This document shows positions 1 to 64,000 of a stretch of DNA of 64,000 nt, piece after piece; the first letter of the stretch is position 1, and every line of letters begins with the position of its first letter. The DNA lies in contig JAHQIW010000945.1 of the NCBI GenBank assembly GCA_019055375.1, forward strand, positions 83,650 to 147,649. The letters run 5' to 3'. The stretch comes from Parelaphostrongylus tenuis (Eukaryota > Nematoda > Chromadorea > Rhabditida > Metastrongylidae). Both the position numbers and the translations under genes were made by a program. The notes beneath the pieces were generated by a model, which was not told where the DNA came from, did no database searches, and worked only from the letters and a program-made list of their open reading frames with translations.

Positions 1-3000
1 GGTTTTTTGCTGTTCAATTCAGGGTTTCTTTCTTCAAAAAACAAAACTTCAAACAAAAGTATCAGTTTGACAATTTGAGTTTTTTCATGCGCTCACATGC
101 TTTTCGTGCATAGACTTAGATTCAGTAGCGGGCTGTTTAGGGCTGTACAATGGAAATGGTAAGCTTAAACTTGCAGAACGATAGAGCAGAGCATCTTCTA
201 CATCTTCTATGCAAGAAATCTAGAGACCCTCGCAAAACGGACAAAAATTCCTATTTAACTAACGATATTACGCTCGATTACGTATACTCGATTCGGTGTA
301 AAAATTTAAGAGCATCGAAAAGCTTTTTTGGAAGGTAAGTAGCTTTTAAAATCACCGGATTTCAACTTTCGAATAATTATGGAAGGCCAACACAAAAATC
401 ACTGTTCAAGAAGGAGGGCTACAGAAAATGGCCTTGATTAAGGATACGAACTTCCAAATCCTATAGATTTAACGTAATCTATTTACCGGCAACATGATCA
501 CCACATGAACCCAATGATAGGTTTGTTGTGAAAAGATTGGATGCATTCCATTCAGAAGAACGAGCTGGCGATAAAAGACGTCCGTGAGGTTACTTTCAAG
601 CTGGATGTAGTCTTTGAACTATTTTTCTGCAAATATAGCTTCACGACGCAGAAGATGACTATTCGGCGGGGCAATATCAAGACTACGCTGTAGATATGGT
701 GTCGTTTTTCTTCAAAATATAGCCAGTCAACTTTACAATGTGAGTTCGAATGTTATCTCGGTAAGATCGACACAAAGTCATTTCGGGCGCTTGTCTTACG
801 CTGCTGCGGTCAACTCTATGGTTGTAAAGTGCCGAACGTCTGCACTGATTGACTGCTCCTTAACAAGCAGTTTTCAAAACAGCAGGTGGAGAAGTGTTGT
901 GCCTATGCTGTCGAAGAAGGACTTCGAAGATGTTCACGAGTGCAACGCAGTCGTCAGTCGGTTAGTGCATAAGGCCCACCGAGACATCAGTTTGCACCAG
1001 CCCATTCCATCTTATTATCAAGCGATGGTTCAAAGCTCCTGAACTCAAGCGGCTTAGAGTTGATCGATAGTGGTGACGTGGTAAAAATTTCTACGGCCGC
1101 CACTTGCGCAACTCTCTAAATTATATCAGCAAAGCATAGGCGAACATATGTAACGCTAATCTATTTTGATTCTTGGTTGATTAGAGTGCAGCACGTATGA
1201 TCCTTTATATCGTGCCAAAGCTGCTGTAACATTCTCGAACATACCACAGCCTTTCAGCAATAACCAACTCTTGAAACCAATTGAAGCAATAAGGCAAAAA
1301 AAGTTATCAAACATCCCAGTGTGATGGTCGATCGTGAACTGTCACTCTCATATTATTCTATTTCAGTTTTCTCGTGAAGTTTTCGAAGAATATTGAAGAC
1401 AGTTTTTGATAGGATATTTTCAATTCAGTGAACTACCAACCTTACATCGATATTATTATCATTTTAGAGTTCTTTCTTTCTTCTGTTTCATTAGAAGATC
1501 CGACAAATGGGTACTTTCCGGTAGGGTGGCACAAAAGTAGGAACCGATCCGTTTTATTAGACAAGAACTTTCCATAGATGTGTTACTCGTCGCTTAAGAA
1601 CCTAACTTTGCCTAATGCCGTACGTGACTGCATTCTGAAAAGACCCTTTGAAGTGCTTCAACGAAAAGATTTACATTTGTGGCTCACACGCTCTTATTTC
1701 TCGCAGTACAGAGCTCTTTCGCTAGATTATTGGTAATCAATCGATAGCGTCGCTTTCAAGAATATCAACAATACGTTTAGTTCCTGAAAAGACCACTTCT
1801 GTGCAGTGCAGCACTAAAAATAATACCACTTCATATAACCCATCACGTGTTTTTTAGCCAATTCAGGAGTAGTGGGTGAAGAGGCAGGCGCTGTTAAGAC
1901 GACGATCACTAAATGTCGCCGATGCTATACACATGTGAAGTGCTATTTTGGTTTTTCAATTAGAAATTGTTTCTCCGCCTCGAAATAAACTTTGGATAAA
2001 ACGTATGGCTCTAAAACTGACAGGTTTTCTGTACAAGTTCATGTGTTTCTAGTGTTAGTTCAATTGAGCGACCCATGTAAAACAACCCGCAACTAATGCG
2101 TAGGCCAGCCGGTAAACATGCTCGCCCACTATGTGGAACACGATGTTATCATCCTTACTACACTTCAGTGAAATGGTCATTCCCAGAAAGTAAGCACAGC
2201 GTTGGAAGAATTGAAACTTACACTATCGAATGAGTGCTAATAGTCTAAAGAGCAAGCTCTGTTCAGCGAGGCGTAAAACACAAGGATTTTCTTTCTCCCA
2301 CTGCTCTATCAAAAGAGCTTTTCCAAAAAGCAAACACATTTTAAGTTGCTTGAGAATTTTGCTAGTGAAAGCGCAATAGCAAACCAAGGGACGAATTTTG
2401 TCCAGCGAAAAATAAGCAGTACAAGAATGAAAAACATATGATCATGTGAAACATAATGTAATCTTGAATTTCACAGCGTCATAAAAGGGTGTTTTGAGAA
2501 AACGGACACGTAAGGCTTTAGTCAAAGATTCAAGCTCTCGAATGATTACGAGCATTCCCATGAAAAAATCTTGTAGAGCGAACTAAGTCGGACATTCCTT
2601 TGTTCCCTTATAACCGAAAGTTACCAAATTGTAAGTAAGAATACAGAATAGAAAAAATGACATTGACTACATTAGTAGTTTGTCGCAACGGTTGCAGCGC
2701 AAATTGCAACAGGGAAGAAGATCCGGTGATGTCATGGGAGGCTGCCGCAGCGATTGAGATTCATAATCGACGAAGATCATTGACAAGGTCCTTAAAGTAG
2801 AGGCTGGAGTCATTGAGCAAGAAATGATTAGAGATCATTGCTCTTCAGGAGATTCTGGAGTGGGTGGTGGTCATTCATACATGTTTATGATCGTGTTTGT
2901 CCACGTTTGATCGGCGATTTCTGGCGGAAATTTGCAGCTGATAATAACTTATTTACAAAAAAAGCGGCAATAGCACATTAAACGCAAAAAGTTTATGGTA

Positions 3001-9429: not shown

Positions 9430-9660
9430 TCGAGTGTTAAACACTGCAGATCTAGTGACTCATTTCACTTGACGGCACGTGTAAATTGTGCGTTGTCGTC
9501 TACTCTCAATAGGGTTCGTGTTACCATGATGAGATTGACTAAAGACGATAGGCCTGCCAAACTTGCGAGGCTGTCAAGGCCGAAACATATATGTTAAGCT
9601 CTGCAAGAGCCCATACACAGACCACATAACATGGTTTCTCTCAAAAATAATTAGCAGATG
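9430..9660 (+). repeat. R1 repeat, old copy with hammerhead relic
   Basis: Read on the plus strand it aligns with the minus strand of 46335-46660. Shared landmarks are GAGCGTGGTCTT with ACTCGA just upstream, the ribozyme-like stretch at 9553-9603, then CTCTGCAAGAGCCC and AGACCACATAACATG. A further truncated relic (CCCGACTTACGAGGCTGATAC) lies at about 9752-9772. Confidence 0.6.
9553..9603 (+). ncRNA. Decayed hammerhead ribozyme (R1 family)
   Basis: The usual CUGANGAG has become CTTGCGAG (9562-9569), so the core is broken. Stem II remains (GGC ... GCC) and GAAA is intact at 9582-9585. Stem III is ACATA with TATGT, followed by UUA. It is recognisable only by comparison with intact R1 copies. 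Confidence 0.5.
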
Positions 9661-11849: not shown

Positions 11850-12620
11850 GACTAAAATAACGATCTGCACCTACAATGCAAGAACCCTTGCTCACGAATC
11901 CGCTGTAGAAGATCTATTGATCCAAGCAAGAAGAATAGGTACGATGTCATTGGCTTGACTGAGACAAGAAGTCGCCATCCTTTTCACGCTGTTTATGACA
12001 CCGGAGAAGAAGTGTTCTCTTGGTACATGTGGTTGCAGATGTGTCGGCGGCGTTGGCGTCCTCGTCAAATCGAATTTGACCGTGAACATTGATTCGTTCG
12101 AACAACTAACAACCCGTATCGGAAGATTACGGTTGAAACGACGTGGTTCTATGCCGGCTTAAACAATCTTCGTTGCCTACGCACCAACATTAAGCTATGA
12201 CAAAGACGAAGTCAAAGCGTTCTATATGGACCTCGAAAAATTCTTCAGAGAGGATCACACATTCTTCAAGGTTATTGTCGGAGACTTTAACGCAAAAATT
12301 GGACCTGGAAGAACGTCTGAAGAACGCCGCATAGGGGCCAGCGGACTAGAATAGAATGAACAGGATGAGAGGCCGTCTGAGATCATCATGACGACTCAAA
12401 CCATCCATGGTAACTCGCAATCCAAAAGCCTCTTTCTCAGCGATGGACGTGGAAGTCTTCCAATGGAGAGTACCATAACGAAATAGAGCACATCTTAGTG
12501 AATCGAACGTTTTGCCTGAGCGATGTCGCTGTTGTTCCTAAGTTCTACACGGGATCAAACCATCCCCTCCTTCGCGCAACGTTCCGTTTTCAAAGGAGAG
12601 GAGAGAAGGCCGCTAAATTC
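11850..12620 (+). pseudogene. RTE AP-endonuclease domain (broken), copy C
   Basis: This part of the RTE polyprotein nicks target DNA. The frames give ICTYNARTL near 11862, GGVGVLVKSNLTV at about 12045-12085, MDLEKFFREDHTF, and VIVGDFNAKIGPG at about 12272-12310, where the GDFNA box carries the catalytic Asp/Asn pair of exonuclease-endonuclease-phosphatase enzymes. An in-frame stop interrupts the segment before the final block, whose GSDH box reads GSNH (about 12553). Frameshifts after ARRIG and stops near 12350 make it nonfunctional. Confidence 0.8.
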
Positions 12621-12808
12621 AATCAAAGAAGTACCAGAACTATCATAAACTGGGATTTTTTCAAATCATTAGTCGGCTCTTGGGAAGATACCGTTGTCGA
12701 CAACATCGTTGAAGTACACGATCGACTTGTTGAATATCTTCACGTTAGCGCTATGAAAGCCGAGAGTCCTAAGGTCACGAAGAGACTCTTGCCTTAGCAG
12801 ACACTGGA

Positions 12809-21616: not shown

Positions 21617-22513
21617 TCACCTGTAACACCTGTCGTCCCGTTGATCGTCGAGTGACTCGAGCGGGTACCAGCAACTCTTCCATTTTTCCCTATCGCGTGC
21701 AAGAGTAGCCCAGTGGGTCCTCCTCGCTCTAGGGATTCGCTGAGCATCATATCTTTCTTCCATCGCTTTCGTGAAGAAATCGGACCAACGGGTCAGTGGT
21801 CTTCCTGTAGAGCGCTTGACGTCCCGAGGAATCCAGTCTGCAACGGCTCTCGTCCATCGGTTGTCGTTGAAGCGCATCACGTGTCCGGCCCACCTTATTT
21901 TCGATATGCTGGCGTGTAGAACGGCGTCTCTGATTTTCGATCGTTGACGTAGGTCGGAACTGCGGATCCTTTGTCTCATTTGCGAAAAACGGTATACTCC
22001 TAGCATCAACCTTTCAACTGCGCGTTCGATAACTCCAAGTGATCTTTCATCTTGCTTACGTAGCGACCAGGTTTCTGCTGCATACGTTAGGGCAGGGATA
22101 ATTGTCGAGTTGAAAAGGTGGGCACGGAGTCGGATGTTCTTTTTCCTCTTCACTACATCTTCGATGCTCTTAAACGTTCCCCAAGCCGCTCGTTCCCTCC
22201 TGCTCAACTCTGGGACTAGGTCGTTCATCATGTTGATTTCACGACCTAGATAGATGTAACTGGAGCATTCGGAAATTGTCGTTCCGTTGAGCGTGAATGG
22301 GGCATTAGAAACCCAACCGTTCCTCATGAACATTGTTTTCGTTAGATTCAGTTGAAGACCGATCTTTCCACAGGAGTTATCGAAATCAGTCAACATTCGT
22401 TCCGCTTGGCTGATGTTTGGTGCTATGAGAACGATATCGTCAGCAAAGCTAAGATGGTTCAACTGTCGACCGTCAATTTTCACACCCATTTCATCCCATT
22501 CTAATGATCGCAT
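21617..22513 (-). pseudogene. RTE reverse transcriptase palm and C-terminal region, copy E
   Basis: A 298-residue frame. LSFADDIVLIAPNISQ is the second catalytic block with both Asp residues kept. LQLNLTKTMFMRNGW and YIYLGREINMMNDLVPELS follow. The C-terminal region has ALTYAAETWSLRKQDERSL, SKIRWAGHVMRFNDNRW, TRWSDFFTKAMEERYDAQR, and THWATLARDREKW. The frame is continuous to the end of the element. The break lies upstream, so this fragment cannot work alone. Confidence 0.88.
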
Positions 22514-22758
22514 GACGTTTTGTAGGGTGGAAGTGAATAGTTTTGGCGATATTGTATCGCCTTGTCGAACCCCTCTTCTTACGTCAATGGTGATATTGTT
22601 CTAGAATGAAGATATGTTGGTCGAGAAATCTTTATAAAGCTCGCGAAGGATCATTATGTACCGAGTAGGGACGCCCTGGTTATCCAGGGCCTCTATAACG
22701 CTTCTGTCTCCACTGAATCGAAGGCTTTCTTCAGATTGATGAAAGTGAAACAGAGTGG

Positions 22759-23532
22759 TTACATGTACTGTCGTGAAACTTCACTGAGTCTTGTAAATGT
22801 GTGGATGTGCTCTATGGTACTAAATCCTTTTCGGAACCCTGCTTGTTCGCATGGCTGTCCTTCGTCCAGTGTTCTGTCAATCCTGTTCAGGATCACTCGA
22901 GTAAAGAGTTCATAGACAACGGACAGCAAGCAGATTGGGCGATAATTGCCTATGTCGTGAAGGTCTCCCTTTTTGAACAACAATACGGTCCTGCTGGTTC
23001 TCCATTGAATAGGAACCTTGCATTCTGACAGGTAGCGAGTGAAGAGCCGAGCCAGGGTGTTGATGAGAACTGGCGGCAGGTTCTTCAGGTGTTCTGATCT
23101 AATCCTGTCTGGACCGGGTGTTGTTCTGTTTTTCACCGACGATATAGCATGTCGGATTTTGGAAGGAAGGACCGGTGGAACGACATATTCGCCCTCTTTC
23201 AATTTATATGGCGGTAAGAAAACATGGCTAGCGTAGAGATCCGAGTAGTATTGGTGGATGATTTTCTCCATAGCCCTTCTGGAAGCTGTAAGTGTCCTGT
23301 CAGGGTATCGGAGTGTAATCATCTTGGTCTTATAGTTAGCGAAGCCTCGCTGGGCTCTGCGAATGCCCTTCCTAGCTTCTGCAGCTTCTTCCATAACTGC
23401 TGCTCTTCTCTCTTTAAGGTCTTCTTTTATCGCTTCTCTGCATCGTTTCGCAAGTTCGGACGTAAGGCTTCGGTTGCTTGCAGCTCGTGCGATTCCACGT
23501 TGACGTATCAGCTCGAGTGTCTGCGGAGACAA
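22759..23532 (-). pseudogene. RTE reverse transcriptase, N-terminal half, copy E
   Basis: A frame of 257 residues: a basic linker (AKRCREAIKEDLKERRAAV), TPGPDRIRSEHLKNLPP, the FKKGDLHDIGNYRPICLLS block of RT motif 2, VILNRIDRTLDEGQPCEQAG, and FRKGFSTIEHIHTFTRLSEV. It stops at 22759-22761 (TAA), just before the first catalytic block. That block reads FINLKKAFDSVE, so the catalytic Asp of FIDLKKAFD is Asn. In copy C the same positions read EYKQPLC and FIDL, so both are changes from an active ancestor. Confidence 0.88.
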
Positions 23533-23601
23533 GCGTCTCTTCGTGACCTTAAGACTCTCGGCTTTTTTAGCGTTAACGTAAAGATATTCAACGAGTCGAT
23601 C

Positions 23602-24662
23602 TTATTCTTCGTCGATGTTGTCGACAACGGTATCTTCCCAAGAGCCGACTAATGATTTGTATACATCCCAGTTTATGGTAGTTCTGGGACTTCGTTGTTT
23701 GAATTTAGCGGCTTTCTCTCTTCTGCTCGAAGATCGGAACGTTGCGCAAAGGAGGCGATGGTCTGATCCCGTGTAGAACTTGGGAACAACAGCGACGTCG
23801 GTCAGGCAAAACCTTCGATTTACTATGATGTAATCTATTTCGTTATGGTACTCTCCATTGGGAGACTCACACGTCCATCGCTGAGAAAGAGGCTTTTGGA
23901 ATTGCGAGTTACCATGGATGGTTTGGGTCGTCATGATGATCTCAGACAGCCTCTCACCCTGTTCATTCCATGCTAGTCCGTGGGTCCCTATGTGACGTTT
24001 TTCAGACGTTTTCTAGGTCCAGTTTTTGCGTTAGAATCTCCGACAATGACCTTGATGAATGTATGATCTTCTCTGAAGAATTTTTCGGGGTCCATATAGA
24101 ACGCTTCGACTTCGTCTTCGTCATAGCTTGATGTTGGTGGGTAAGCAGCGAAGATGGTCAAAGCCGGCATAGAACCACATAGTATCAACCGTAATCGTCC
24201 GATACGGGTTGTTACTTGTTCAGACGAATCAATGCTCACGGTCAAATTCGATTTGACGAGGACGCCAACGCCACCGACACCTCTGCCATAGCATGTTCCA
24301 GGGAACAGTTCCTCTCCGGTGTCATAGACAGCGTGAAAAGGATGGCGCCTTCTCGTCTCAGCCAGGCCAATGACGTCGTACCTTATTCTTCTTGCTTGAA
24401 TCAATAGATCTTCTACGGCAGATTGTTGAGCAAGGGTTCTTGCGTTGTAGGTACAGATCGTCATTTTAGTTCGTTTCGATCTTGGCAGCCTAGTTCGGCC
24501 CTGAGATTTTAGCAGCCTCTGCGTACTCGTCCTACCTGGCGCTGCCGTAACAGGGGCTCTTTCGGGGTCAGGGGAATGATGCCCATATTTGTTACTGTTT
24601 TTGGCATTTTGATACCCAACGTGTAGCTTGCCAGGCTCTAAACGTGGGGGCTGGGTACTCAT
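23602..24662 (-). pseudogene. RTE AP-endonuclease domain, copy E
   Basis: The first 224-residue frame (24662-23988) starts MSTQPPRLEPGK. It contains TICTYNARTL (residues about 68-77), an IGLAETRRR block with the metal-binding Glu, GGVGVLVKSNLTV, and VGDSNAKTG, where the usual GDFNA reads GDSNA. A frameshift at about 23990 separates it from 23934-23602, which carries WTCESPNGEYHNEIDYI and YTGSDHRLLCATF (the GSDH catalytic box). The domain would nick target DNA to prime reverse transcription. The frameshift makes it a pseudogene. Confidence 0.85.
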
Positions 24663-26559
24663 GAGTAGCTTGCCAGTCTCTCTCCGAGAGGCGGGAGGAG
24701 CTTATTTGTTGGAGGCGACTCCTAACCGCCTCCCATGTTCTTCCCAGCCGCTTGATTGCAGGCTTTTGGCCGACTTGACTCGTAGAGATAGAGTTTTTGT
24801 CAAGTCGGCGCTGCAGAAGCAGGGAGCTCGTCCCCTGAATCCACCTGCGTCTCTGGGAAGCACACAGTCGCTTTTGGTTCGCGTTTTATTCCCCTATCCA
24901 CCACCTGGGGACGCGCCACGTGCCCTCGCGACTAACCGGGCGGGATCCTTTAGAGAGGTAGGTCCGTGGTTGATAGCATATCTTCCACAATAAACACCTC
25001 TAATGAAAATGTGAAGGCAATTGGAGTACATAGCCTAGGTCAGTGTAGAAAGAGCGCACGTTCATCATTTCGTGGAGTGCTTTTCCGTTATCTTCACCTA
25101 GTTCAGCTCCTTCGAAAAAAAAAGGGCTTTCTACTTTTTTCGACATCTCAGTGATCAATCGATAGCATAAATTGCGACTATTAATGGTACGCACTTTGCT
25201 TAAATATGCATTTTTGTTGTGCTGCAGCAGCAAAAATAAAATGACATTTCTTCTCCAAAGGGTGGGAATCGCTGAAGATGCTCAGTAGGTATTACGCCTT
25301 TGTAAATTGTGTCATTTGCTCCTCATGACGTTTCACGTAGCTATTGTAAATCGTGCTCTCTATGAGATCATTGTACCTGCAGCCTACTACGACGATTTGG
25401 GAAAGACGCTTCATCTAGTTCTATGAGGTTTTCGTAGTCATTCGAGACCCTGGATCAAAAAAGTTTTAACAATTTATTTGTTTTCAAGATAGCTTCAATA
25501 CCGCATAGCAATAGCGAAAATAACAAAAAGAAGCAAGAAGAGTAAAGGCAAGAAGAAAATTGGTTTTCTCATTCAGACATTTCTCGCTGGATGAAACCCT
25601 TTCTCTAAGCTTTTAGTTTCGATTCGACAACTCAAATCTTGGTGATTATGAGTTGATCCATTATTGGTCTTCTCGAAAGTTTGAGAGTGTATGGCTAAAG
25701 AGATTTGATGCCCTGACTCTTCTAGGCGCTAAAAAAGAAAACCGATGAGATGGCGGCTGTCATTGAAGAGCCTCGTGTAAATTGATAAAGCAGATTCAGG
25801 TATTGATTACCATCAATTACTTATCTGCATTGTTGCGTGATTTCATAGCCGTTTCACATATTCCAGCCCCTTGTATGCACAAAAACCAGCGAATATTTCA
25901 CTCCTTTGTCGAATATGCTATTTTTGTCGTTTAGTGTGACAGTGTGAGCACGGGTACGCCTCTTCGAATTAAAGGGTAAGGTAGCCATCCAAAGACAGCA
26001 AATGTGGCTCACAAGGAGGAGTCAATCAGCTCTCTAGAAGGTATTTCGTCCAGCTCAAGTTCTTCTTCATTTACTTATATGCTCTTTCGATTTTAAGTTA
26101 TGCATCTAAGTATTTATTTGCATTGAGCTTGTTTTCAGAAAGATGCTTTGATATTTATCCAATTGCGCAGTTTTATTGCCATATTGCTCCTAACCTCATC
26201 TTAAATCGCAAAAGATCCCATGCGCTGCAAGGACACATAGAACTGTCCCATTTCGAAGGACTTATAGAATACTAGTCAAGAAATAATTTAGCAAATTTTT
26301 TTTAGTTTCTCATATTTTGAGTGATTCACCCATTGAGGAGACTCCCTTGTGCATAATCCGCAAAAGACATTAGCTTGAGCTACTTTTCGAGAGCATGATG
26401 GTGTTGAAAAGTCAACTCGAGAGGTCGCGAAGAGCCTAATACAATCCAGTTTGATAGTTCCCCTTTTGACTATTTTGTCCGTACTTTCCCGTTTCCCGCG
26501 CAAGGATTCAACCCCTTAGAAAAGAAGCAATTTTTAGATTTTTCTTCCAGGTTTCAGTA

Positions 26560-42302: not shown

Positions 42303-42456
42303 ATATTTTTTATTTACCCGCTCTTAGCGGATGTGAGATGTTACAGGTATATCCAATGGTGTTGGGTGGTTCGTAAGATTTTAACATCAGGCGAGAATCA
42401 AACCTGCATTTCACCCTTTCCGGGGGTGCGTGCTTAACCATCTGCACTACTGAAGT
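42303..42456 (-). mobile_element. tRNA-derived SINE (SINE2-like) with terminal hairpin
   Basis: The minus strand gives CAGTAGTGCAGATGGTTAAG (A box), CGCACCCCCGGAAAGGGTGA, GCAGGTTTGATTCTCGCC (B box), a linker, then TGTAACATCTCACATCCGC, loop TAAGA, GCGGGTAAATAAA (42310-42352). The hairpin TCCGC/GCGGG differs in sequence from ACTGC/GCAGT and ACCGC/GCGGT of the other copies but still pairs. Confidence 0.7.
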
Positions 42457-44710: not shown

Positions 44711-44784
44711 TACACACACACACACACACACAACACACACAAACACACACAACACACACACACACACACACACACATACACACA

Positions 44785-44839
<55 letters not shown>

Positions 44840-44867
44840 ACACCACACACTCACTACACGCACACAC
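44711..44867. repeat. CA microsatellite
   Basis: About 157 bp of nearly pure (CA)n with a few single-base interruptions. The open frames over it on both strands are artefacts. Confidence 0.95.
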
Positions 44868-45409
44868 TTTTCCGTAACTTAGAGGGATGAAACGTTAGTG
44901 TAATCACAACGTGAGATCGAATCTTAATCGTGTACTGAAGAACACTTGCAACCACTGCAACCACCGCAAACGTCCGCTTACGCTCCAAAGGACCTTCAGT
45001 GGTCTAACACAACTCTGACATCTCCTGCTTCAGATTTTTTTTGTGTATGGCCAATGAATGTTAGTGAGTTGCTACTTCCCGAGATCCTAATTTTTTTTTG
45101 CAAAATCCTGTATCGATCAGAGTTTCTCGCTGCCAGAGCTATCACAAATCTCTCGTTGCAAAAAATTGGCTTTTGATTGGCCTGTTCGTGGACCGAACTG
45201 GTGGCTGGTGCGCTTATCCACACCGTCAAAAAAGTCTTTCTTGAAAACCGGCGACGTGGGGCTGTAGCCACACGTGTCAACTTTCGAGTGGTTAATAACT
45301 GTCCCAAGAAAAGTTTCTTTATAGCAAATGAACTCGGTTTTTGCTTTGCCAACACCTAATGAGAATGAACGTTGTTCCCTAACATTTCGATACGTTCATG
45401 TTCTTTAGA

Positions 45410-46030
45410 TTATTCGAGTCCACTGCCCACATTAATTCGTTCTCCTTGTAATCTTCGTCCTCATTGCCATCGAGTCGAATCCTCTTCGAATTGTCGGAAG
45501 TCGAAGACCACAGCGGCAACGAACGACGGTAGGCAAATTATCAAATCATCGGCGTTGAAGGAATTGAAATTCGTCGAAACATTAGGCGAGTAAAATTTGT
45601 GTATTAACCTCGTGAACTATGCTCAATTCTGCAGGACATGCCAATGTTTTTATAAGCGTTCGAAAAACTGTCCTCCAGAACCTTATGAAAAATCTTGGAT
45701 ATTACCTATCTGGCAGTTGACAGAATCTGTTGAATTTGTAGTTAGCGGTGAGTTTAAGTTCTTAAGGCCGTTAGTTTCATCTTGCTCTCATTTTTAGCAA
45801 CGCCACCCACCTTTTGGGGGAGAAAATTGATAGCGATCAAAACGAATTTCGTCTGGATACATTAATAGGCTCGCGCGACTGTCGGTCATATAAATGCATT
45901 CTGCCTGCATACTTATGCCGAATTTATAGGGTATCCTAAAGTGATTGACGGTTATTGCTCTTCAATTCCCATAAGTTCTTGCCTCTTTCTGCACATCGTA
46001 ATCCGTTAGAGATTTTCTGTGTATTTCATA
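45410..46030 (+). repeat. R4 dispersed repeat, copy 2 (partner 16095-16770)
   Basis: It contains GCCATCGAGTCGAATCCTCT, GTCGGAAGTCGAAGACCACA, a TTGAAGGAATTGAAATTCGT block followed by CGAAACATT (45558-45586), GGATACATTAATAG, CTAAAGTGATTGACGGT and CTGCACATCGTAATCC, in the same order and spacing as copy 1. The 73-codon frame at 45372-45593 falls inside the repeat and is probably not a gene. Confidence 0.55.
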
Positions 46031-46054
46031 ATTAGTAGAGCCCACATCTAAATT

Positions 46055-46330
46055 GGTCTGTTATGGGATCTTGTACACCCCGATAGATGTGTTTTTTGGC
46101 CTTGCAGCCTCGTCAGTAGGGAAGGCCCTTCGCCTATAGCTAGTCCTCTCGGGGACCTCTACGTCCTCCTATAACGAGCAGGTGACGACGAACGATTTAC
46201 ACAATTGCCGTTAAGTGAAATAAATCACTAAAACTGCAGTGTTTGACACTCTATTGCTTTTGGATGGTAATTTTGAAATATTGGATCGCTTGTTTTGAGT
46301 GTTTTCTCAAGAGCACATTCAAAATTAAAC
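46055..46330 (-). repeat. R1 repeat, tandem copy 1
   Basis: It shares with 46335-46660 the ribozyme block, the GATCTTGTACACCCCGA / CTCTTGTACAGCCCGA start, the AGTCCTCTCGGG / CAGTTCTCTCGGG segment, and a TTGAGTGTTTTCTCAAGAGC segment near the end. It is more diverged than its neighbour. No open frame extends through it. Confidence 0.7.
46077..46123 (-). ncRNA. Hammerhead ribozyme, R1 tandem copy 1 (damaged)
   Basis: The minus strand has CUGACGAG (46116-46109), then stem II GCU-GCAA-GGC with a GNRA-type loop. The GAAA box has become a run of A with an extra base, so G12 is lost. Stem III and the UAUC/UCGGGG part of stem I are still visible. It is likely inactive. Confidence 0.65.
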
Positions 46331-46334
46331 ATAT

Positions 46335-46660
46335 CTCATAATTATACCTTTCCTTCGAGTGCTTTATAAGACCACGCTCAAACTTCAATAGATCCTTTCA
46401 TTATTATTTGAGTCAACATGTCATGTGGTCTGGTAAGGGCTCTTGTACAGCCCGAGACACGTGTTTCGCCCTTACAGACTCATCAGCTGGGCAGAACCCG
46501 TCGTTTGTCGATCTTTTTATAGTCAGTTCTCTCGGGTGCGTTACACTCCTTATAGAGAGTTGTCGACGACGTACGTTTTATACTCTATGTCAAGCGAAAT
46601 TTTCACCTAACAAAAGTATTTTCGCACTCGATTGCTAGCTGGCTGATATTTTATCTCCAT
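46335..46660 (-). repeat. R1 repeat, tandem copy 2
   Basis: It includes CTTCGAGTGCTTTATAAGAC, CACGCTCAAACTTCAATAGA, ACATGTCATGTGGTCTGG, the ribozyme block, GGGCAGAACCCGTCG, CAGTTCTCTCGGG and ATGTCAAGCGAAATTTTCAC. All these recur in the 51-kb copies. Confidence 0.75.
46450..46492 (-). ncRNA. Hammerhead ribozyme, type I, intact core (R1)
   Basis: Minus strand, 43 nt. CUGAUGAG core (46486-46479); stem II GUCU-GUAA-GGGC with a GNRA tetraloop; GAAA (46467-46464); stem III ACAC with GUGU; cleavage triplet GUC; stem I GCCCAG with UCGGGC, where four G-C pairs and one G-U form and one A-C mismatch remains. All conserved core positions are present. Self-cleavage is predicted after C17 (46456). Stem I is perfect in the related copy at 51395-51437, supporting the fold. 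Confidence 0.85.
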
Positions 46661-46666
46661 CTAACA

Positions 46667-46925
46667 GCAAAAATCTATCGACTGAGAGGTGGTGATGGTA
46701 CAGTTTTATAATACACTGTGCCATCACCACATACGCCTCCTTCCTTGCTTCAATGCAGAGCTGAATGTGGGACGGGGGTCACTGATGAGGAGGACGAACC
46801 TCCGAAACACCGGTGTATGACCCTGGCGTACCAACCCCTTTTTGAGCTTAAATCATTCTTTTTTGGAATTATATGAATGTTTTTTGGGGGTTTCAAAAAC
46901 AGTCGATCTTTTGAATTACCATTAA
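46667..46925 (+). repeat. R2 hammerhead-bearing repeat, copy 1
   Basis: It starts ATCTAACAGCAAAAATCTAT. A TGGTGATGGTACAGT ... ACTGTGCCATCACCA hairpin follows, then CGCCTCCTTCCTTGCTTCA, the ribozyme, TTTTTGAGCTTAAATCATTC, and CAAAAACAGTCGATCTTTTG. The same order occurs at 55480-56025 on both strands. There is no coding frame. Confidence 0.8.
46775..46824 (+). ncRNA. Hammerhead ribozyme, type I, fully intact (R2)
   Basis: Stem I is GGGTCA (46776-46781) with TGACCC (46818-46823), plus a G-U pair. The core CTGATGA is 46782-46788. Stem II is GGAGG (46789-46793) with CCTCC (46799-46803), closing loop ACGAA. GAAA is 46804-46807. Stem III is ACACC with GGTGT (46807-46816), and the cleavage triplet is GTA (46815-46817). 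Every conserved hammerhead nucleotide is present. Cleavage is expected after A46817. The palindromic stem III with no loop is like the minimal hammerheads that work as dimers. Confidence 0.92.
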
Positions 46926-49900
46926 AAAACTTATTGAGTATACTCTGAAAGTTTTCGACGATATTTATCCTTTCCGTCCACATCAAAGACCCCGGATGAG
47001 GCACTGCCAATTGAGCAGACTCGATTCCCAAAAGATTCTGTTATAAGGATCACATCGAGACTTTCTTACGTTTCAGTAAAGTCTGTTAAGGATACCGTAT
47101 GTTCCTTTTTCTCATCTTTACTGATTGCAAGAAGACGCTTGGAAAGAAAATGTAGATCCATCTGATAATGAGCAATAACCGACTTTTGTCAAAATTTCAG
47201 CAAATACATATAACTTTTCCATCGGTCCCTCACCATGCCCAAAAAAGGATTCAACAAGGCGACTATATCGCCAGTGCTATTCAGCGCCGCACTACAGTGG
47301 ATAATGATTCGTTCTATTTGTATGAAAAGGAACACGTATAGAAAGATTCCTATAAAACCTTTGTTTTGCAGTTGGCACCACCACCTTTCCGAACACTGCC
47401 ATTGAAGCAAAGACGATGCTCATTGAATTAAATGGAGAGAAATAAAGGTTTGGACTACGCATAAATAGGGTAAGGACTTAGTGCTAGGAAAATCTATGGT
47501 GCGAAAGTAAAAAAATTGAGCTTGATGGTTCAATGAATACAGAAAACACCTTTTTTGTATACCTTGTGCGTTAAATGAAATGGAGAACATCATGAAGGAG
47601 GAATGGAATGAAAAGGAGAACATCATTGGCCACATTTGAAACTTTCGTAGAAATTATCGGTCAAACAGCAACCGACGGCATTACAGCAACTAAGACAGTG
47701 TTTCATAATTTATTATGGAAATAGAAAAAATACATAAACCTTTAATATTCACAATAATTGGTTCAAATAAATTTGAGAGAAAGGCAAGGCGAGGATCTCC
47801 ATAATACATTGGGTAACACATGAGGCAACGGAAAGGGTTATCAAAGCGATCTCAGGCTCCAAGTTTTGCTCGTATCTCGGCACACAAGTAGCTACATCTC
47901 TCATCCTACCCTGACACTGGAGTGAATTAGTCATTAAATAAGGTTAAATGATGTGTCATCAACAGTTTTCAACACCTATGAAATGCCTATAACCTTGTGC
48001 AAGTTGTAAAGATTACTCTTACAACGGAATAAAGATATAAACACGAGTAGCAGAAGAGAATTCCTATGAAATGAATTGTATTTGTAAGCTTTTACAGATA
48101 TGAATTCGACCATAATACAAGGATATATATGAGGAGGACGAAAATTCTCAAGAAGCAGCCGAATTCTTTATAAGAAGGCTTGTCGTCTTCGTGGGTGATC
48201 GATGAGAGTAAATGGAGTCAATGAATTGCTGAAAATGCATAGTATGAAGAAGGGTCATAGCCAAAACAAACGGAATAAACGAAAAAAAAGAACGGTTATG
48301 CAAAGGATCACCAAAGTAGTAGTCCTAGATGCCCGTGCTCACACGAGAAGAAGTGAAGGCACCTATTGATAAACCCTTAGATTGACTGAACACAACGTAT
48401 GCCAGCTTTTGAGCGTGTTGGCACCTAATAAGAGCCCTTTTTCGATCTTTGTCAAGCTGCTATTGTGTGAAGCAGAAATTTTTCTCAACCGACTTTCTGA
48501 CTTCTGTCAACTTACAGACGTGAGCCGATTTTGTTGACTTGCCAGATGTTCGTGTAATAATGACAAACTTACGGCATGCAGTTAACAAGCTGGATTGACT
48601 GAACGCAAACGTTACTACGCACGTTCTTCGTCGAAAAAAAAAAGTTCCACCATTCTTTCACAACAAGGTGCATATCTTTCAGTGCATAAATCGCTTCCCG
48701 TTTCCAATTTTGTCGTCGACTTTTACTTTCAAAATCGCGATGTCATTGATCAAGTAGTGTTTCTTGGAGCATCGTATCAGTGCTGCCTTTCCAGCTTGCG
48801 TATTATGGGAGACAGCGATGACGACACAAATGGCATGATACAGCGCAGTGTAGAGGAAGTAGAAATGTGACTTGGTGTTTGGAAATTAGCTTATGAAAGC
48901 ACGGAAGTCGCGATCATCACGCTGCACTGCTAAGCACGAAATTGATAGTATAGTAAGTGCGAACGCTCTTAAGATGAACATCTTTTCCGTCTTGTTTCAA
49001 ACAACTTCAAAATACCTTGTTTCTGCAGCACGGCAATCGCTAGTAGCAATGCATGGGACGTTCTTAAGCATGTCCCGTTCTTTAAGACGTATTAACTGCT
49101 TGTTAACCTTTCCTTTTTCCAAACTGCCATGACAGACGTTAGATCTATGCAGTTTGGACCAGATACCTTTACAGCCGTAAAATCACATCAAAGATATCTA
49201 TTCAAAAACAACGAGAAAGAGAGAGAGAGAGTCAAGTAATATGCGAGTAGTAACGAATTAATCAGTTCGTAGTGTTAAGATGAAGTACAAGAGAGTGTGA
49301 TCAACTCAGAGCATCGTAAGCACGCAAGAAGATTGAGGTGACCATTCACATTTACCTACGTACAATGCCTGATGACAGCATGACCGCTTGCGATAGTCAT
49401 GTCCTATTTGAGGGTCATTTTGATGCATAAGGCTAGAGCTGTACCATCTGAACTGAATATTGAAAAAAGGAGTTTATGAGGAGAGTTTGAGCTACACAAG
49501 CGATGGAAGGGCTAGATTTATTTTTGTTGATGTTGGTGAAGATATTCAATACACGAAAAGAGACAAAATTCATCAATCGATCAGCTTTTCTACCGAATAT
49601 TAGCTTTACCAGATCGTAGAAGAACATAGCAAAACTCCCTTATTAAAAATGGTTTCTTGAAGAAATCTTTTTGGTAAACAGGATATCCCACTAAACTGTT
49701 GGCAATTAGTTAAAGGCAAAATTCAATGCAAAAAGAACAATGTACTTGGTTTTTTTCTAATGAGACCTTCTTATAACGCTGTATCGATAACAATAAAACT
49801 GAGTTCAAGACGCCAGCCGCATTCTTGCGCGTATATTTTACTGGATAGAGAACTTTCCTGGATTGTTAGCGATTATTTGGTAGTAATTTTCGGCATCTTA

Positions 49901-50985: not shown

Positions 50986-50989
50986 GATA

Positions 50990-51190
50990 ACTTGAAATTG
51001 CTGTCTGGTAAGGGCTCTTGTACAGCCCGATACATGTGTTTCGTCCTTACAGATCCGTCAGTCGGGCAGAACCTGCCGTCTTTCAATTTTTCATTAGTCA
51101 GTTCTTTCGAGAGCCTGCTCTACCTGCAGAGAGATATAGAAGACGAAAATTTACATCCTATATCAAGTGAAATTTTCACTTAACAAGACT
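50990..51190 (-). repeat. R1 repeat, inverted-pair left arm
   Basis: It carries the ribozyme block, GGCAGAACCTGCCGTC, TAGTCAGTTCTTTCGAG and ATATCAAGTGAAATTTTCAC. It is mirrored by 51195-51560. Confidence 0.75.
51025..51067 (-). ncRNA. Hammerhead ribozyme, R1 left arm (one core change)
   Basis: The minus strand has a perfect stem I (GCCCGA with UCGGGC), GAAA, a short stem III and a GUA cleavage triplet. The core reads CUGACGG instead of CUGACGA, changing conserved A9, so activity is probably lost. Confidence 0.75.
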
Positions 51191-51194
51191 TTAG

Positions 51195-51560
51195 CTGGTA
51201 TTTTATCATATTGTACCTTCGTTTCGAGTGTTCTATTGAGACCAGCTAAAGAGCAATCGAGGTACAACACTCTGTGTTAGGTGAAAATCTCGCTTGACAT
51301 AGAGTGTAAAACGTTCGTCTTCGATATCTCTCTGCAGAGAGAGCAGGCTCTCAACAGAACTGACAAATAAAAAAATCGAAAGACGGCGGGTTCTGCCCGA
51401 CTGACGAGTCTGTAAGGGCAATACAAGTGTATCGGGCTGTAAAAGAGTCCTTACTAGACCACATAACATGTCGGCTCAAATATTATTGTAAGGATCTATT
51501 GAAATTTGAGCGTGGTCTTATAAAATACTCGAAACGAAGGTATAACTGGAAATTGTTCTG
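51195..51560 (+). repeat. R1 repeat, inverted-pair right arm
   Basis: Plus-strand order: TTAGGTGAAAATCTCGCTTG, AGAGAGAGCAGGCTCTC, ACGGCGGGTTCTGCCCGA, the ribozyme block, CACATAACATGTCGGCTCAA, and GAGCGTGGTCTTATAAAA. It is the reverse complement of the 46335-46660 layout. Confidence 0.75.
51395..51437 (+). ncRNA. Hammerhead ribozyme, R1 right arm (GAAA box damaged)
   Basis: Stem I GCCCGA (51395-51400) pairs perfectly with TCGGGC (51432-51437). The core CTGACGAG (51401-51408) is intact and stem II is GTCT-GTAA-GGGC. The GAAA box has become AATA, so activity is probably lost. The cleavage triplet GTA is kept. Confidence 0.75.
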
Positions 51561-54800: not shown

Positions 54801-55479
54801 CATATAACTGATCAAGAAGACAACTTGAACTGAAAATTTAATACTTTTTTAGTAAACATTGTGCTCAATATGCAAAGCCTCAGTCATAAAAGGCATTCCA
54901 AAGTTTCCATATCAGTGTTAGAGCTAAATATTGCTTCGAATTTTAGTTAATATCAACAGAAAGACTGAGTCAATGCTATTAGCCGTGAATAACGATCAAC
55001 ATATCTCTTCTATCCAACTCAGTAAATATATTTCAGGATGCTTAGTAGCTTACGAGCACAGATGGGAGTTGAGGCATAACTTACGAGTAAAGGTGGGAGT
55101 TGAATCCAGCAAGACTGAAGGAAGATACTTCCCCTATACCATGAAAGCCATCCCTTACCATTCTTTCTTCAACACTATAATTCCGACCACATAAACAGCA
55201 AGCTTCAACGTAGGCCATGACAAGACAGCTTCCATAGGTCATAAAACACCAGTAACATTAGAACTAACATTATTTTCGCTCAAAAAAGGACAGCGGATCG
55301 TAAATGTGTGTTTGCGACATTGACGCTCAAACATTTGATACGACTCTTCTTCTGAGATATTCCTAATTAGCAATTTTATACTTTCGCTAGAGACCGCAAA
55401 TTTACATCCCATCCCAGCAAATAGGACATTTTCTTTGAAATCTTATACGTAACCAAGCTAAAGAGTTCCATGATGTATA

Positions 55480-55695
55480 ATTCCAAAAAAAAAGAATGAT
55501 TTAAGCTCAAAAACGAGGTTGTTACGCCAGGGTCATACACCGGTGTTTCAGAGGTTCGTCCTCCTCGTCAGTGACCCCCGCCCCACATTCAGCCCTGCAT
55601 TGAAGCAAGGAGGGAGGCGTATGTGGTGATGGCACAGTGCACTATGACACTGTACCATCACCACGTCTCAGTCGATAGATTTTTGCTGTTAGATC
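55480..55695 (-). repeat. R2 hammerhead-bearing repeat, copy 2 (inverted)
   Basis: The minus-strand copy of the 46667-46925 layout: ATCTAACAGCAAAAATCTAT at 55695, the TGGTGATGG hairpin, the ribozyme, then GAGCTTAAATCATTC. A further minus fragment, from CAGTCGATC to the CACCGGTG stem III, occupies 55708-55818 and abuts copy 3. Confidence 0.8.
55529..55578 (-). ncRNA. Hammerhead ribozyme, type I, intact (R2 copy 2)
   Basis: The minus strand has stem I GGGUCA/UGACCC, core CUGACGA, and stem II GGAGG with CCUCU (one terminal G-U) closing loop ACGAA. GAAA follows, then stem III ACACC/GGUGU and cleavage triplet GUA. All core bases are conserved. It differs from 46775-46824 by the N7 base (C for U, allowed) and the G-U pair. 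Confidence 0.9.
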
Positions 55696-55818
55696 AAAAC
55701 TAATTCAAAAGATCGACTGTTTTTGAAACCCCCAAAAAACATTCAATATAATTCCAAAAAAAAAAGAATGATTTAAGCTCAAAATGGGGTTGGTACGCCA
55801 GGGTCATACACCGGTGTG

Positions 55819-56025
55819 CCATCACCACATACGCCTCCCTCCTTGCTTCAATGCAGGGCTGAATGTGGGGCGGGGGTCACTGACGAGGAGGACGAACCTC
55901 TGAAACACCGGTGTATGACCCTGGGCGTAACAACCTCGTTTTTGAGCTTAAATCATTCTTTTTTTTTGAATTATATTGAATGTTTTTTGCTGGGTTTCAA
56001 AAACAGTCGATCTTTTGATTTAGTT
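55819..56025 (+). repeat. R2 hammerhead-bearing repeat, copy 3
   Basis: The plus-strand copy, joined at its start to a partial inverted copy through the CACCGGTG palindrome. It contains the ribozyme, TTTTTGAGCTTAAATCATTC and CAAAAACAGTCGATCTTTTG. The 102-codon frame at 55816-56124 runs across it and is not a gene. Confidence 0.8.
55873..55922 (+). ncRNA. Hammerhead ribozyme, type I, intact (R2 copy 3)
   Basis: Stem I GGGTCA (55874-55879) with TGACCC (55916-55921); core CTGACGA (55880-55886); stem II GGAGG/CCTCT with loop ACGAA; GAAA (55902-55905); stem III ACACC/GGTGT; triplet GTA, cleavage after A55915. It is identical in sequence to copy 2 through the ribozyme. Confidence 0.9.
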
Positions 56026-56126
56026 CCATTATGTTTATGGTGGTTGAATACAAGAGAGGGTGAAGGGAGATTAATTCAGCCTGCAATAAATCCCAGGACC
56101 GACTATCTATTTACCTCGGCATAGTT

Positions 56127-56622
56127 TGAATAAATGAGTATCTTCTTCTGTTTAGCCGCTCCGAGGTGCTATTGATATTATTTATTGAATATCAGCGAAG
56201 CATATAACAATACAGTTAATAATGCGGCATGAATATTACAACAGTCGTGGTGGCTTACGTTTCGGCAAGTTTCGCCATGTTCAAAGCCGCTTAGATGTTT
56301 TAGGTATTTCAATTAATCATTGAAGACCTGCCACTTGGAGTCTGTGCTATAGTGAGACTTTCTATAGCTGTAGTCTCACTATAGCAGTGGGTCTCACTAT
56401 AGCACAGACTCCAAGTGGCAGGTCTGCAATGATTACTTAAAATACCTGAAACATCTAAGCGGCTTTGAAGATGGCGAACCTTGCCGAAGCGTAAGCCGCC
56501 ACGACTGCTGTAATATTCATGCTGCATTATCAACTGTATTGTTATATGCTTCTCCGATATTCAATAAATAATATCAATATCACCTCGCAGCGGCTAAACA
56601 GAAGAAGATACTCATTAATTCA
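56127..56622. mobile_element. Near-perfect ~496-bp palindrome (fold-back element)
   Basis: The two arms mirror each other about 56374/56375. For example, GAGTATC at 56136-56142 matches GATACTC at 56607-56613, and GACCTGCCACTTGGAGTCTG from 56325 matches its complement ending at 56424. The arms are about 230 bp with scattered mismatches, and the central loop is about 34 nt. There is no open frame of note. ATTAATTCAGCC occurs at 56070 and again at 56615, possibly part of the insertion footprint. Confidence 0.85.
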
Positions 56623-61438: not shown

Positions 61439-61880
61439 GGCCACGGACGTCCCTCTTTGAGGGATCCCGCCCGGTTAGTCGCGAGGGCACGTGGCGCGTC
61501 CCTAGGTGGTGGATAGGTGAATAAACGAGAACCAAAAGCGAGCATGTGCTTCCCAGAGACGCAGGTGGATTCAGGGAATAAGCTCTCTGCTTCTGCAGTG
61601 CCGAGATGACAAAACACTATTTCTACAAGTCAAGTCGGCTAAAAGCCGGCAATCAAGCTGCTGGGAAGTACATGGGAGGCGGTTAGGAGTCGCCTCCAAC
61701 AAATAACTTCCTCCCGTTCCTCCGAGAGATACTGCCAAGCTACTCGTGAGTACCGAGCCCCCACGTTTAGAGCCTGGCAAGCCATACGTTAGGTATCAAA
61801 ATGCCAAAAACAGCAACAAATATGGGCCTCATTCCCCTGACCCCGAAAGAGCCCCTGGTACGGCAGCGCCAGGTAGGACC
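61439..61880 (+). mobile_element. RTE 5' UTR fragment, inverted against copy F
   Basis: The plus strand from GGCCACGGACGTCCC to GCGCCAGGTAGGACC matches the first ~440 bp of copies C and E, including the GGAGGCG ... CGCCTCC hairpin. It stops abruptly and continues as the minus-strand C-terminal region of copy F. Confidence 0.88.
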
Positions 61881-62382
61881 TTTCGACTGCGCGTTCGATA
61901 ACTCCAAGTGATCTTTCATCCTGCATACGTAGCGACCAGGTTTCTGCTGCATACGTTAGGGCAGGGATAATTGTCGAGTCGAAAAGCTGGGCACGGAGTC
62001 GGATGTTCTTTGTCCTCTTCACTACATCTTCGATGCTCTTAAACGTTCCCCAAGCCGCTCGTTTCCTCCTGCTCAACTCTGGGGTTAGGTCGTTCATCAT
62101 GTTGATTTCACGACCTAGATAGATGTAACTGGAGCATTCGGAAATTGTCGTTCCGTTGAGCGTGAATGGGGCATTAGAAACCCAACCGTTCCTCATGAAC
62201 ATTGTTTTCGTTAGATTCAGTTGAAGACCGATCTTTCCACAGGAGTTATCGAAATCAGTCAACATTCGTTCCGCTTGGCTGATGTTTGGTGCTATGAGAA
62301 CGATATCGTCAGCAAAGCTAAGATGGTTCAACTGTCGACCGTCAATTTTCACACCCATTTCGTCCCATTCTAATGATCGCAT
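61789..62382 (-). pseudogene. RTE reverse transcriptase palm, copy F
   Basis: A 197-residue frame with LSFADDIVLIAPNISQ, LQLNLTKTMFMRNGW and YAAETWSLRMQDERSL, whose last ~30 residues come from the inverted 5' UTR sequence (61789-61880). It has no C-terminal region. Confidence 0.87.
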
Positions 62383-64000
62383 GACGTTTTGTAGGGTGGA
62401 AGTGAATAGTTTTGGCGATATTGTATCGCCTTGTCGAACCCCTCTTCTTACGTCAATGGTGATATTGTTCTAGAATGAAGATATGTTGGTCGTGAAATCT
62501 TTATAAAGCTCGCGAAGGATCATTATGTACCGAGTAGGGACGCCCTGGTTATCCAGGCCTCTATAACCGCTTCTGTCTCCACTGAATCGAAGGCTTTCTT
62601 CAGATTGATGAAAGTGAGACAGAGTGGTTACATGTACTGTCGTGAAACTTCACTGAGTCTTGTAAATGTGTGGATGTGCTCTATGGTAGTAAATCCTTTT
62701 CGGAACCCTGCTTGTTCGCATGGCTGTCCTTCGTCCAGTGTTCTGTCAATCCTGTTCAGGATCACTCGAGTAAAGAGTTTATAGACAACGGACAGCAAGC
62801 AGATTGGGCGATAATTGCCTATGTCGTGAAGGTCTCCCTTTTTGAACAACAATACGGTCCTGCTGGTTTTCCATTGAACAGGGACCTTGCATTCTGACAG
62901 GTAGCGAGTGAAGAGCCGAGCCAGGGTGTTGATGAGAACTGGCGGCAGATTCTTCAGGTGTTCTGGTCTAATCCTCTCTGGACCGGTTGTTGTTCTGTTT
63001 TTCACCGACGATATAGCATGTCGGATTTCGGAAGGGAGGACCGGTTGGGGCGATATAATCGTCCTCTTTCAATTTATATGACGGTAAGAGGACATGGACT
63101 AGCGAAGAGATCCGAGTAGTTTTGGTGGATGATTTTCTCCATAGCCCTTCTCGAAGCTGTAAGATGTCCCGTCAGGGTATCGGAGTGTAATCATCTTGGT
63201 CTTATAGTTAGCGAAGCCTCGCTGGGCTCTGCGAATGCTCTTCCCAGCTTCTGCAGCTTCTGCCATAACTGCTGCTCTTCTCTCTTTGAGGTCTTCTTTT
63301 ATCGCTTCTCTGCAGCATTCGCAAGTTCGGACGTAAGGTTTCGGTTGCCTGCAGCTCGTGCGATTCCACGTTGACGTATCAGCTCGAGTGTCTGCGGAGA
63401 CAAGCGTCTCTTCGTGACCTTAGGACTCTCGGCTTTTTTAGCGCTAACGTGAAGATATTCAACGAATCGATCGTATTCTTATCGATGTTGTCGACAACGG
63501 TATCTTCCCAAGAGCCGACTAATGATTTGAATACATCCCAGTTTATGGTAGCTCTGAAACTTCGCTGTTTGAATTAAGCGGCTTTCTCTCCTCTCCTTGA
63601 AAAACGGAACGTTGCGCGAAAGAGGCGATGGTCCGATCCCGTGTAGAACTTAGGAACAACAGCGACATCGGTCAGGCAAAACCTTCGATTTACGAAGATG
63701 TGGTCTACTTCGTTATGGTACTCTCCATTGGGAGACTCCCACGTCCATCGCTGAGAAAGAGGCTTTTGGAATTGCGAGTTACCATGGATGGTTTAAGTCA
63801 CCATGATAAACTCAACAGCCTCTCACCCTGTTCATTCCATTCTAGTCCGTGGGTTCCTATGTGACGTTCTTCAGACGTTCTTCTAGGTCTAATTTCTGCG
63901 TTAAAAATCTCCGACAATGGCCTTGATGTATGTATGATCTTCTCTGAAGAATTTTTCGAGGCCCATATAGAACGCTTCGATTTCGTCTTCGTCATAGCAA
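61882..64000 (-). mobile_element. RTE-clade retrotransposon copy F, truncated by the window edge
   Basis: The minus strand from the endonuclease (GDFNAEIRPR-like, about 63905) through RT to ERAVER near 61880, where the last ~280 bp of the element are missing. Between 61890 and 62640 it is nearly identical to copy E. It shares with E the TAA at 62628-62630, the TAG at 62470-62472 and the FINL change at 62604-62606, but has its own indels (about 62558). The 5' end lies beyond 64000. Confidence 0.92.
62628..63005 (-). pseudogene. RTE reverse transcriptase, N-terminal half, copy F
   Basis: A 125-residue frame: GPERIRPEHLKNLPPVLIN, FKKGDLHDIGNYRPICLLS, EQAGFRKGFTTIEHIHTF, then the nonsense codon before FINLKKAFD. 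The upstream frame is broken near 63050 and 63310. Confidence 0.87.

Follow-up and report, generated by a model that had tools for sequence, protein, structure and literature searches.

Is the 50-nt stretch at 46775-46824 a genuine hammerhead ribozyme, and, if so, what kind of element carries it and which enzyme moves that element? We addressed this question in a 64,000-nt stretch of Parelaphostrongylus tenuis DNA (the window, here always that whole stretch), together with genome searches covering 481.5 Mb in 5105 contigs. The site lies in a copy of one of two repeat families, here named A and B, and the features of that copy, including two start sites of reverse transcription (RT), are as follows:

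46659-46924, + strand: family A copy, about one full circle; BLAST match to the 270-nt unit at 46659-46914, arc 112..101
46689-46730, no strand assigned: self-complementary hairpin inside the family A copy, 81% to its own reverse complement
46775-46824, + strand: type-I hammerhead of family A; descriptor match, and match of a home-made covariance model at 46772-46827 (27.4 bits)
46873, + strand: equivalent of RT-start site 1, +56 after the cleavage site; the minus arm's outer end (55476) corresponds to this position
46914-46924, + strand: RT-start site 2, +97 to +107 after the cleavage site; right end of the copy 46659-46924

The hammerhead reads GGGGUCA CUGAUGA GGAGG ACGAA CCUCC GAAA CACCGGUG UA UGACCCU, where stem I comprises 6 bp and one G-U pair, stem II comprises 5 bp, and stem III is the palindrome ACACCGGUGU (ACACC/GGUGU), formed without a loop. 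The original prediction, made from the letters alone, had given these letters, coordinates, core nucleotides and all three stems correctly. The site has the features that define the type-I class, namely the core CUGANGA, GAAA and NUH, three helices and an opening at stem I, and its cleavage is predicted from the sequence to fall after A46817 (46817/46818). A strict type-I descriptor identified three sites in the window (46782 on the plus strand, 55880 on the plus strand and 55571 on the minus strand) and none on either strand of 100 sequences simulated from the window with a first-order Markov model (6.4 Mb in total), which bears out the earlier claim of an intact type-I hammerhead and confirms the hammerhead at 46775-46824 as real, beyond chance. 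A looser hammerhead pattern, which is a weaker test, matched six times in the window against a mean of 0.75 in shuffles, and one shuffle in 100 reached six.

A covariance search with the Rfam model, which had been proposed as a check, failed: RF00163 missed 46775-46824 even at E≤10 over 45000-48500, where the sole hammerhead reported was 46450-46492 on the minus strand (29.6 bits, cut-off 34), and at gathering thresholds Rfam reported zero hammerheads across the whole window. Because the stem III of RF00163 has 4 bp and ends in GUC, this miss was not taken as disproof; since Rfam had failed as a test of this site, a covariance model was built without family A. Based on 19 other hammerheads of the same genome, this model recovered 46772-46827 with 27.4 bits and an E-value of 4e-5, so that the covariance check succeeded in this form. 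The 19 sequences were drawn from 27 distinct hammerheads outside family A, eight being dropped, mostly as near-copies of family B; the 27 belong to 42 distinct hammerheads that a pairing filter, applied to 196 candidates, had retained (stem I at least 5 of 6, stem II at least 3 of 4, stem III at least 2 of 3). In the window, the model produced eight matches with E-values no higher than 0.002: family A accounts for three and family B for five, several of them with altered core letters. As the 19 sequences include the window hammerhead 46446-46496 and other family B members, only the three family A matches are independent of the model.

Folding predictions suggest how such a ribozyme might work. 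Taken as a single strand, 46770-46832 (63 nt) showed no stability beyond that of its shuffled versions, 45 of 200 of which did as well (z -0.84), and its minimum free energy structure is not a hammerhead; for one 50-nt strand of the family A hammerhead, a misfold is predicted at -18.0 kcal/mol versus -14.0 for the hammerhead fold. For two strands, the predicted minimum is a nested double hammerhead in family A (-51.5), and likewise in family B (-33.5). Together with the palindromic stem III, these predictions back the earlier suggestion that such a hammerhead may need to dimerize, and they support a requirement for dimerization in family A. Further palindromes serve as stem III in hammerheads of this genome (CACGTG, CGTACG, CAGGCCTG and CACGCGTG), and a perfect palindrome occurs in 15 and is absent in 17 of the 32 distinct strings that are the short-stem-III cases among 100 listed matches of the loose pattern. 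More hammerheads were observed at loci L022, L024, L026, L039, L040, L046 and L047, several with a stem I like GTGGTA/TACCAC or GTGCTA/TAGCAC and a stem III like CGTACG.

Across hammerhead families, stems I and II vary on both sides with 90.7% paired cells, a value that is partly due to selection by the pairing filter and whose shuffles are uncorrected for that selection; by our estimate, chance candidates passing the filter are rare, and the outer C-G pair of stem III is imposed by the search pattern. These data bear on the reading that the hammerhead is a passive relic and that an uncut linear multimeric transcript serves as template. Tandem arrays could indeed derive from linear multimers, and the accessible text on the Anolis Penelope element describes hammerhead mutants of its RNA that still insert in vitro, as well as RNA-seq ends that were unseen at its cut site (PMC11167929). 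Against a relic stand the pairing with both-sided changes, under the selection caveat just given, and the palindromic stem III; on these two grounds we argue that the ribozyme is maintained, and we regard the relic reading as unlikely.

By its sequence, family A appears to be a 270-nt noncoding mobile element that bears a hammerhead and has thousands of copies in the genome. Its unit length comes from tandem copies, including six hammerheads in a row in contig C72, from which five units were read; family B, with a unit of 320 nt also taken from tandem copies (L009), has its own hammerhead and adjoins family A in the window. One unit of L076 and one of L009 served as the references for A and B, respectively, to which older copies align worse, with blurred ends. 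GC content is 0.444 in family A and 0.447 in family B. A 35-nt core of family A, allowing at most 3 mismatches, matched 2465 times in the genome (1287+1178) and the reversed pattern 0+0 times, and the loose general hammerhead pattern matched 6311 times versus 907 in the control. Among 100 core matches listed, same-strand neighboring hammerheads lie 262-274 nt apart in 23 of 24 cases and 539 nt apart in the other. Aligned to a query of five units, genomic copies correspond to arcs of a circle, ranging from less than 0.25 turn to five or more turns, and 53 of 121 arms are longer than one turn. Of the features of metazoan retrozymes, short tandem repeats (150-450 bp) that each bear a type-I hammerhead and a GC content below 50% are found in family A, whose 270-nt unit is too short for a reverse transcriptase. 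The earlier proposal of a retrozyme-like element is supported by the 270-nt tandem units, the 44% GC, the approximately 2500 core matches, the type-I hammerheads and the target-site duplications (TSDs) described below.

The window holds further copies of both families:

55476-56025, both strands: second family A insertion, a head-to-head (-,+) pair whose arms end at +59 (left) and +108 (right)
55464-55476, + strand: left TSD of this insertion, AGTTCCATGATGT
56022-56034, + strand: right TSD of this insertion, AGTTCCATTATGT, 12/13 identical to the left
55526-55581, - strand: its minus-arm hammerhead; covariance model 22.8 bits, strict descriptor match
55870-55925, + strand: its plus-arm hammerhead; covariance model 24.0 bits, strict descriptor match
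46336-46652, - strand: family B copy, 320-nt circle, 87% to the reference unit
46446-46496, - strand: family B hammerhead; RF00163 29.6 bits, and 65.6 bits in our own model, which includes it
46024-46345, - strand: diverged family B copy, 66%; hammerhead at 46074-46126, 29.0 bits
51003-51545, both strands: family B head-to-head insertion; TSD ATAACTTGAAATTG / ATAACTGGAAATTG at about 50987-51000 / 51542-51555
51021-51071 (-) and 51391-51441 (+): hammerheads of 51003-51545 with altered core letters, found by the covariance model
9378-9624, + strand: diverged family B-like copy; hammerhead-like 9552-9603, 21.3 bits

The copy at 46659-46924, whose match to the copy at 55806-56031 extends to 46924, has a single arm that terminates at site 2 and lacks a clear TSD at a score of at least 9; as a single arc without a detectable TSD, it may be old. 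Along 46024-46924, minus-strand family B copies are followed directly by this plus-strand family A copy, an arrangement that is possibly a chimeric head-to-head insertion from two RNAs or a set of nested insertions; a TSD was found there neither for the family B copies nor for the family A copy. Elsewhere in the window, a near-palindromic element at 56127-56622 (232-nt arms, 93% complementary, 32 nt apart) adjoins the second family A insertion and looks like a MITE or foldback element. Pieces of open reading frames with reverse transcriptase lie at 21617-24701 (-), 61789-63068 (-), 12414-14265 (+) and 6659-7810 (+), and they look like RTE-type LINEs. Two matches to a tRNA model, at 42383-42456 (-, 43.8 bits) and 3742-3814 (-, 33.1 bits), may represent either tRNA genes or repeats of tRNA origin, and an (AC)n microsatellite occupies 44712-44867.

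The mode of insertion was read from 75 insertions (31 of family A and 44 of family B) taken from chosen loci and the window, with arms within 60 nt joined; twelve of the family A loci (L079-L090) had been chosen for close (-,+) neighbors in the match listing. Both strands are represented in 42 of the 75, all 42 being (-,+) with hammerheads facing outward, and 33 are of a single orientation. The same order is seen in 32 of 32 two-strand insertions after removal of the 12 loci picked as pairs, and among the 100 core matches listed there are 16 (-,+) and 0 (+,-) neighbors within 600 nt. The ends from which priming would have proceeded form two clusters downstream of the cleavage site, at distances of about 60 and 105-117 nt. 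Within intervals of +45..72 and +92..115 for family A and +52..78 and +100..127 for family B, which were set from the same data with insertions under 80% identity left out and which cover 19% and 17% of the respective circles, we found 49 of 53 (A) and 38 of 43 (B) primed, outer ends, versus 14 of 56 (A) and 3 of 43 (B) other ends.

The two sites, about 45-53 nt apart in both families, are distributed one per arm in 32 of the 33 pairs with both ends in the intervals (p 4e-9), in 24 of 25 without the loci picked as pairs, and in 27 of 28 with narrower intervals; the exceptions comprise 9 of 42 pairs with an end outside both intervals, and locus L034, which uses site 2 twice. TSDs scoring at least 9 flank 36 of the 75 insertions versus 0.5% with shuffled flanks (one of the 36, L052, sits in an (AT)n run), and 39 of the 75 have none at that score. 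Their median length is 12.5 nt, and they overlap primed ends by a mean of 3.2 nt (n=57) and the 7 other ends by -0.6 nt, against a simple null of 0.69 that was not measured identically. Inner ends are scattered, lying within 5% of the circle of each other in 0 of 35 pairs (at least 85% identity). Median arm identity is 97.4% within one insertion versus 92.1% to other loci; both arms need not share one template, since only 27 of 68 arms find their best match in the partner arm. The window insertion 55476-56025 displays the full signature, with two-site arms, the (-,+) order and a 13-nt TSD with one mismatch.

The genome also contains Penelope elements with the enzymatic equipment that the short units lack room for. 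For the GIY-YIG domain (PF01541), 150 matches were scored of 1723 candidates, with open frames of up to 902 aa. The element at L091 (C406:46000-52200) fits the Penelope-like element (PLE) class, having RT and GIY-YIG in one frame, a pLTR, inverted copies and a tail on one of them: its 893-aa frame matches RVT_1 at 1e-11 and GIY-YIG at 2.4e-7, it has a 99.8% identical inverted arm and a 105-bp direct repeat, which is the pLTR, and a 12-nt TSD was read by eye. The near-identity of its arms and its long open frame suggest that this insertion is probably recent. The most similar named relatives belong to Ancylostoma, Necator, Haemonchus and Nippostrongylus, and Angiostrongylus contributed matches that were short but strong; these relatives point to a strongylid nematode. 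Penelope-like RT and GIY-YIG pieces at L029 (2347-3201), spotted by eye in the list of open frames, adjoin a family B copy.

Among the GIY-YIG matches listed, neighbors within 6 kb comprise 20 (-,+) and 0 (+,-) pairs and one pair each of ++ and --. Ten Penelope pairs were picked as close pairs among these matches, none being dropped afterwards, and in all ten the arms end at +56..72 and +104..125 after a hammerhead-like motif, one site per arm; with L091, whose arms end at +67 and +113, the rule holds in 11 of 11. Flank strings of 8-13 nt are shared by the Penelope pairs, a figure given without a chance level. The motif itself (L091, 5510-5541) is hammerhead-like, with CTGAAGA, one additional A ahead of stem II and hardly any stem III; its minimal core is identical in 22 of 22 sampled Penelope copy ends, and it was reported neither by the same-genome covariance model (R1) nor by Rfam at E≤1.

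Families A and B match these Penelope elements in their two RT-start sites and insertion architecture. In addition, family A is co-linear with the RT-start region of the L099 Penelope (score 38, null 20.7, sd 3.8, 0 of 400 shuffles) and more weakly similar to that of L091 (p 0.0075), and it resembles family B (score 35, null 18.1, sd 3.2, 0 of 400 shuffles); family B gave no significant match to the Penelope RT-start region (p 0.16 for L091, 0.065 for L099). In their insertion scars, both retrozyme families and the autonomous Penelope elements share start sites, orientation rule and TSD size. We infer that Penelope is the enzyme that moves both families. It is very probable, on this evidence, that families A and B are retrozymes that parasitize Penelope and insert through reverse transcription started from both strands of the target, and we hold with equally high confidence the joint reading of family A as a metazoan-type retrozyme in a nematode that a resident Penelope-like enzyme inserts.

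A LINE, such as the RTE-like elements of the window, might move the retrozymes instead, with twin priming as the source of the inversions. LINEs produce twin-primed inversions, and RTE-looking frames are present in the window. For hammerhead repeats of Nematostella, the accessible text of PMC4918200 likens insertions with 15-bp TSDs to those of LINEs. The two fixed internal start sites, one per arm, speak against this source, matching Penelope in place and, for family A, also in sequence; initiation at two adjacent internal sites is described as a PLE feature (PMC11167929). We consider a LINE highly unlikely as the mover. The model put forward for Penelope in rotifers (PMC3846280), snap-back self-priming of a cDNA on an antisense template, would also give head-to-head pairs, and the palindrome ACACCGGTGT lies at the inner junction of the window pair 55476-56025; however, this route expects near-coincident inner ends, which none of the 35 pairs has within 5% of the circle, it gives no reason to expect outer sites that differ, and the 3.2-nt mean overlap of TSDs with primed ends (n=57) counts against it as well, leaving it a very remote prospect.

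A reading of the inverted pairs as DNA transposons of foldback or MITE type, with hammerheads in their terminal repeats by chance, is scarcely credible: head-to-head arms with TSDs do resemble terminal inverted repeats, but the reading is disfavored because the termini of the two arms differ in sequence, the two outer ends being different in 32 of 33 classifiable pairs, and also by the scattered inner ends, the several tandem units that arms can contain and the 33 of 75 insertions of one orientation only. Genomic inverted duplication was rejected, as TSDs flank both arms jointly and (+,-) pairs number 0 among the 75 insertions, and also 0 within 600 nt among the 100 core matches listed.

Under insertion by a Penelope-like enzyme, the cycle would run as follows. 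A genomic copy would be transcribed by read-through, and two palindromic hammerheads would join at stem III and cleave in dimeric form, as the fold predictions suggest. The monomers would close into circles, to which the arcs and the constant length of tandem units point, linear multimers being possible. The enzyme, presumably Penelope-like, would bind an RNA module 55-120 nt downstream of the hammerhead and make a staggered break of about 12 nt, consistent with the TSDs seen, and both target 3' ends would prime reverse transcription, each at a different one of the two RT-start sites. The two cDNAs would be extended around the RNA over anything from part of a turn to several turns, in line with the observed architecture, and their presumed joining would yield a head-to-head (-,+) insertion, or a one-armed copy if a single end were extended. 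More generally, it seems probable, taken as a whole, that animal retrozymes of this type are Penelope satellites carrying a copy or mimic of the RT-start module, and that Penelope inserts by double-ended target-primed reverse transcription, with each strand of the 12-nt staggered break primed at a different RNA site. If true, one rule explains the head-to-head pLTRs, the tail on one copy, and both the dispersal and the tandem arrays of hammerhead circles.

The inverted architecture and the Penelope link go beyond the original prediction. New here, as far as genome sequence can tell, are two retrozyme families that appear to bear the Penelope scar, with a near-strict rule of one site per arm; a literature search that mostly covered papers free of subscription found this insertion pattern unreported for retrozymes. 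LINEs or PLEs have been proposed as the movers of animal retrozymes (PMC7229834, PMC7761336, PMC11722881), the case for PLEs resting on co-occurrence and shared hammerheads (PMC7229834, PMC7761336), and the scars described here are structural evidence for PLE mobilization. The mover of animal retrozymes is now directly testable with one purified protein and one 270-nt RNA, and the one-site-per-arm rule offers a concrete model for the completion of Penelope integration.

Several known systems resemble families A and B in part. The metazoan non-LTR retrozymes described by Cervera and de la Pena in 2020 (PMC7229834) likewise have type-I hammerheads, units of 170-400 nt, tandem dimers to multimers, GC below 50% and TSDs of more than 4 bp, and in some species their hammerheads need to act as dimers; in the copies described here, by contrast, a head-to-head arrangement is frequent and each arm uses one of two RT-start sites, and the strings 'nematod' and 'inverted' are absent from the main text of that paper. 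The newt satellite 2 hammerhead acts as a dimer with an elongated helix III (PMC6155905), dimeric action being predicted here as well; the palindromic stem III described here lacks a loop, and its repeats occur as dispersed insertions flanked by TSDs. The Sm-alpha SINE-like elements of Schistosoma (PMC8490949) are, like family A, small and, in the case of family A probably, nonautonomous worm elements with a type-I hammerhead, but they belong to a flatworm, and head-to-head two-site insertions are undescribed in the accessible text. The PLEs share with families A and B the head-to-head inverted pLTRs, the tail on one inverted copy, the short TSDs, the two RT-start sites and the upstream hammerhead (PMC3846280, PMC11167929). 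In rotifers, Penelope elements have head-to-head pLTRs, a tail on one of them and TSDs of 8-10 bp (PMC3846280), and the Penelope protein of Anolis cleaves the two target strands, extends both of them and initiates at two neighboring sites inside the RNA that delimit the PLE tail (PMC11167929). Unlike PLEs, the units of families A and B fall well below the length that a reverse transcriptase needs, and only family A has an RT-start region that resembles the Penelope of this genome; the sites lie about 45-53 nt apart versus 30-40 bp for the optional PLE tail (PMC3846280, PMC11167929), and the hammerheads of both families have a longer stem III than those of PLEs.
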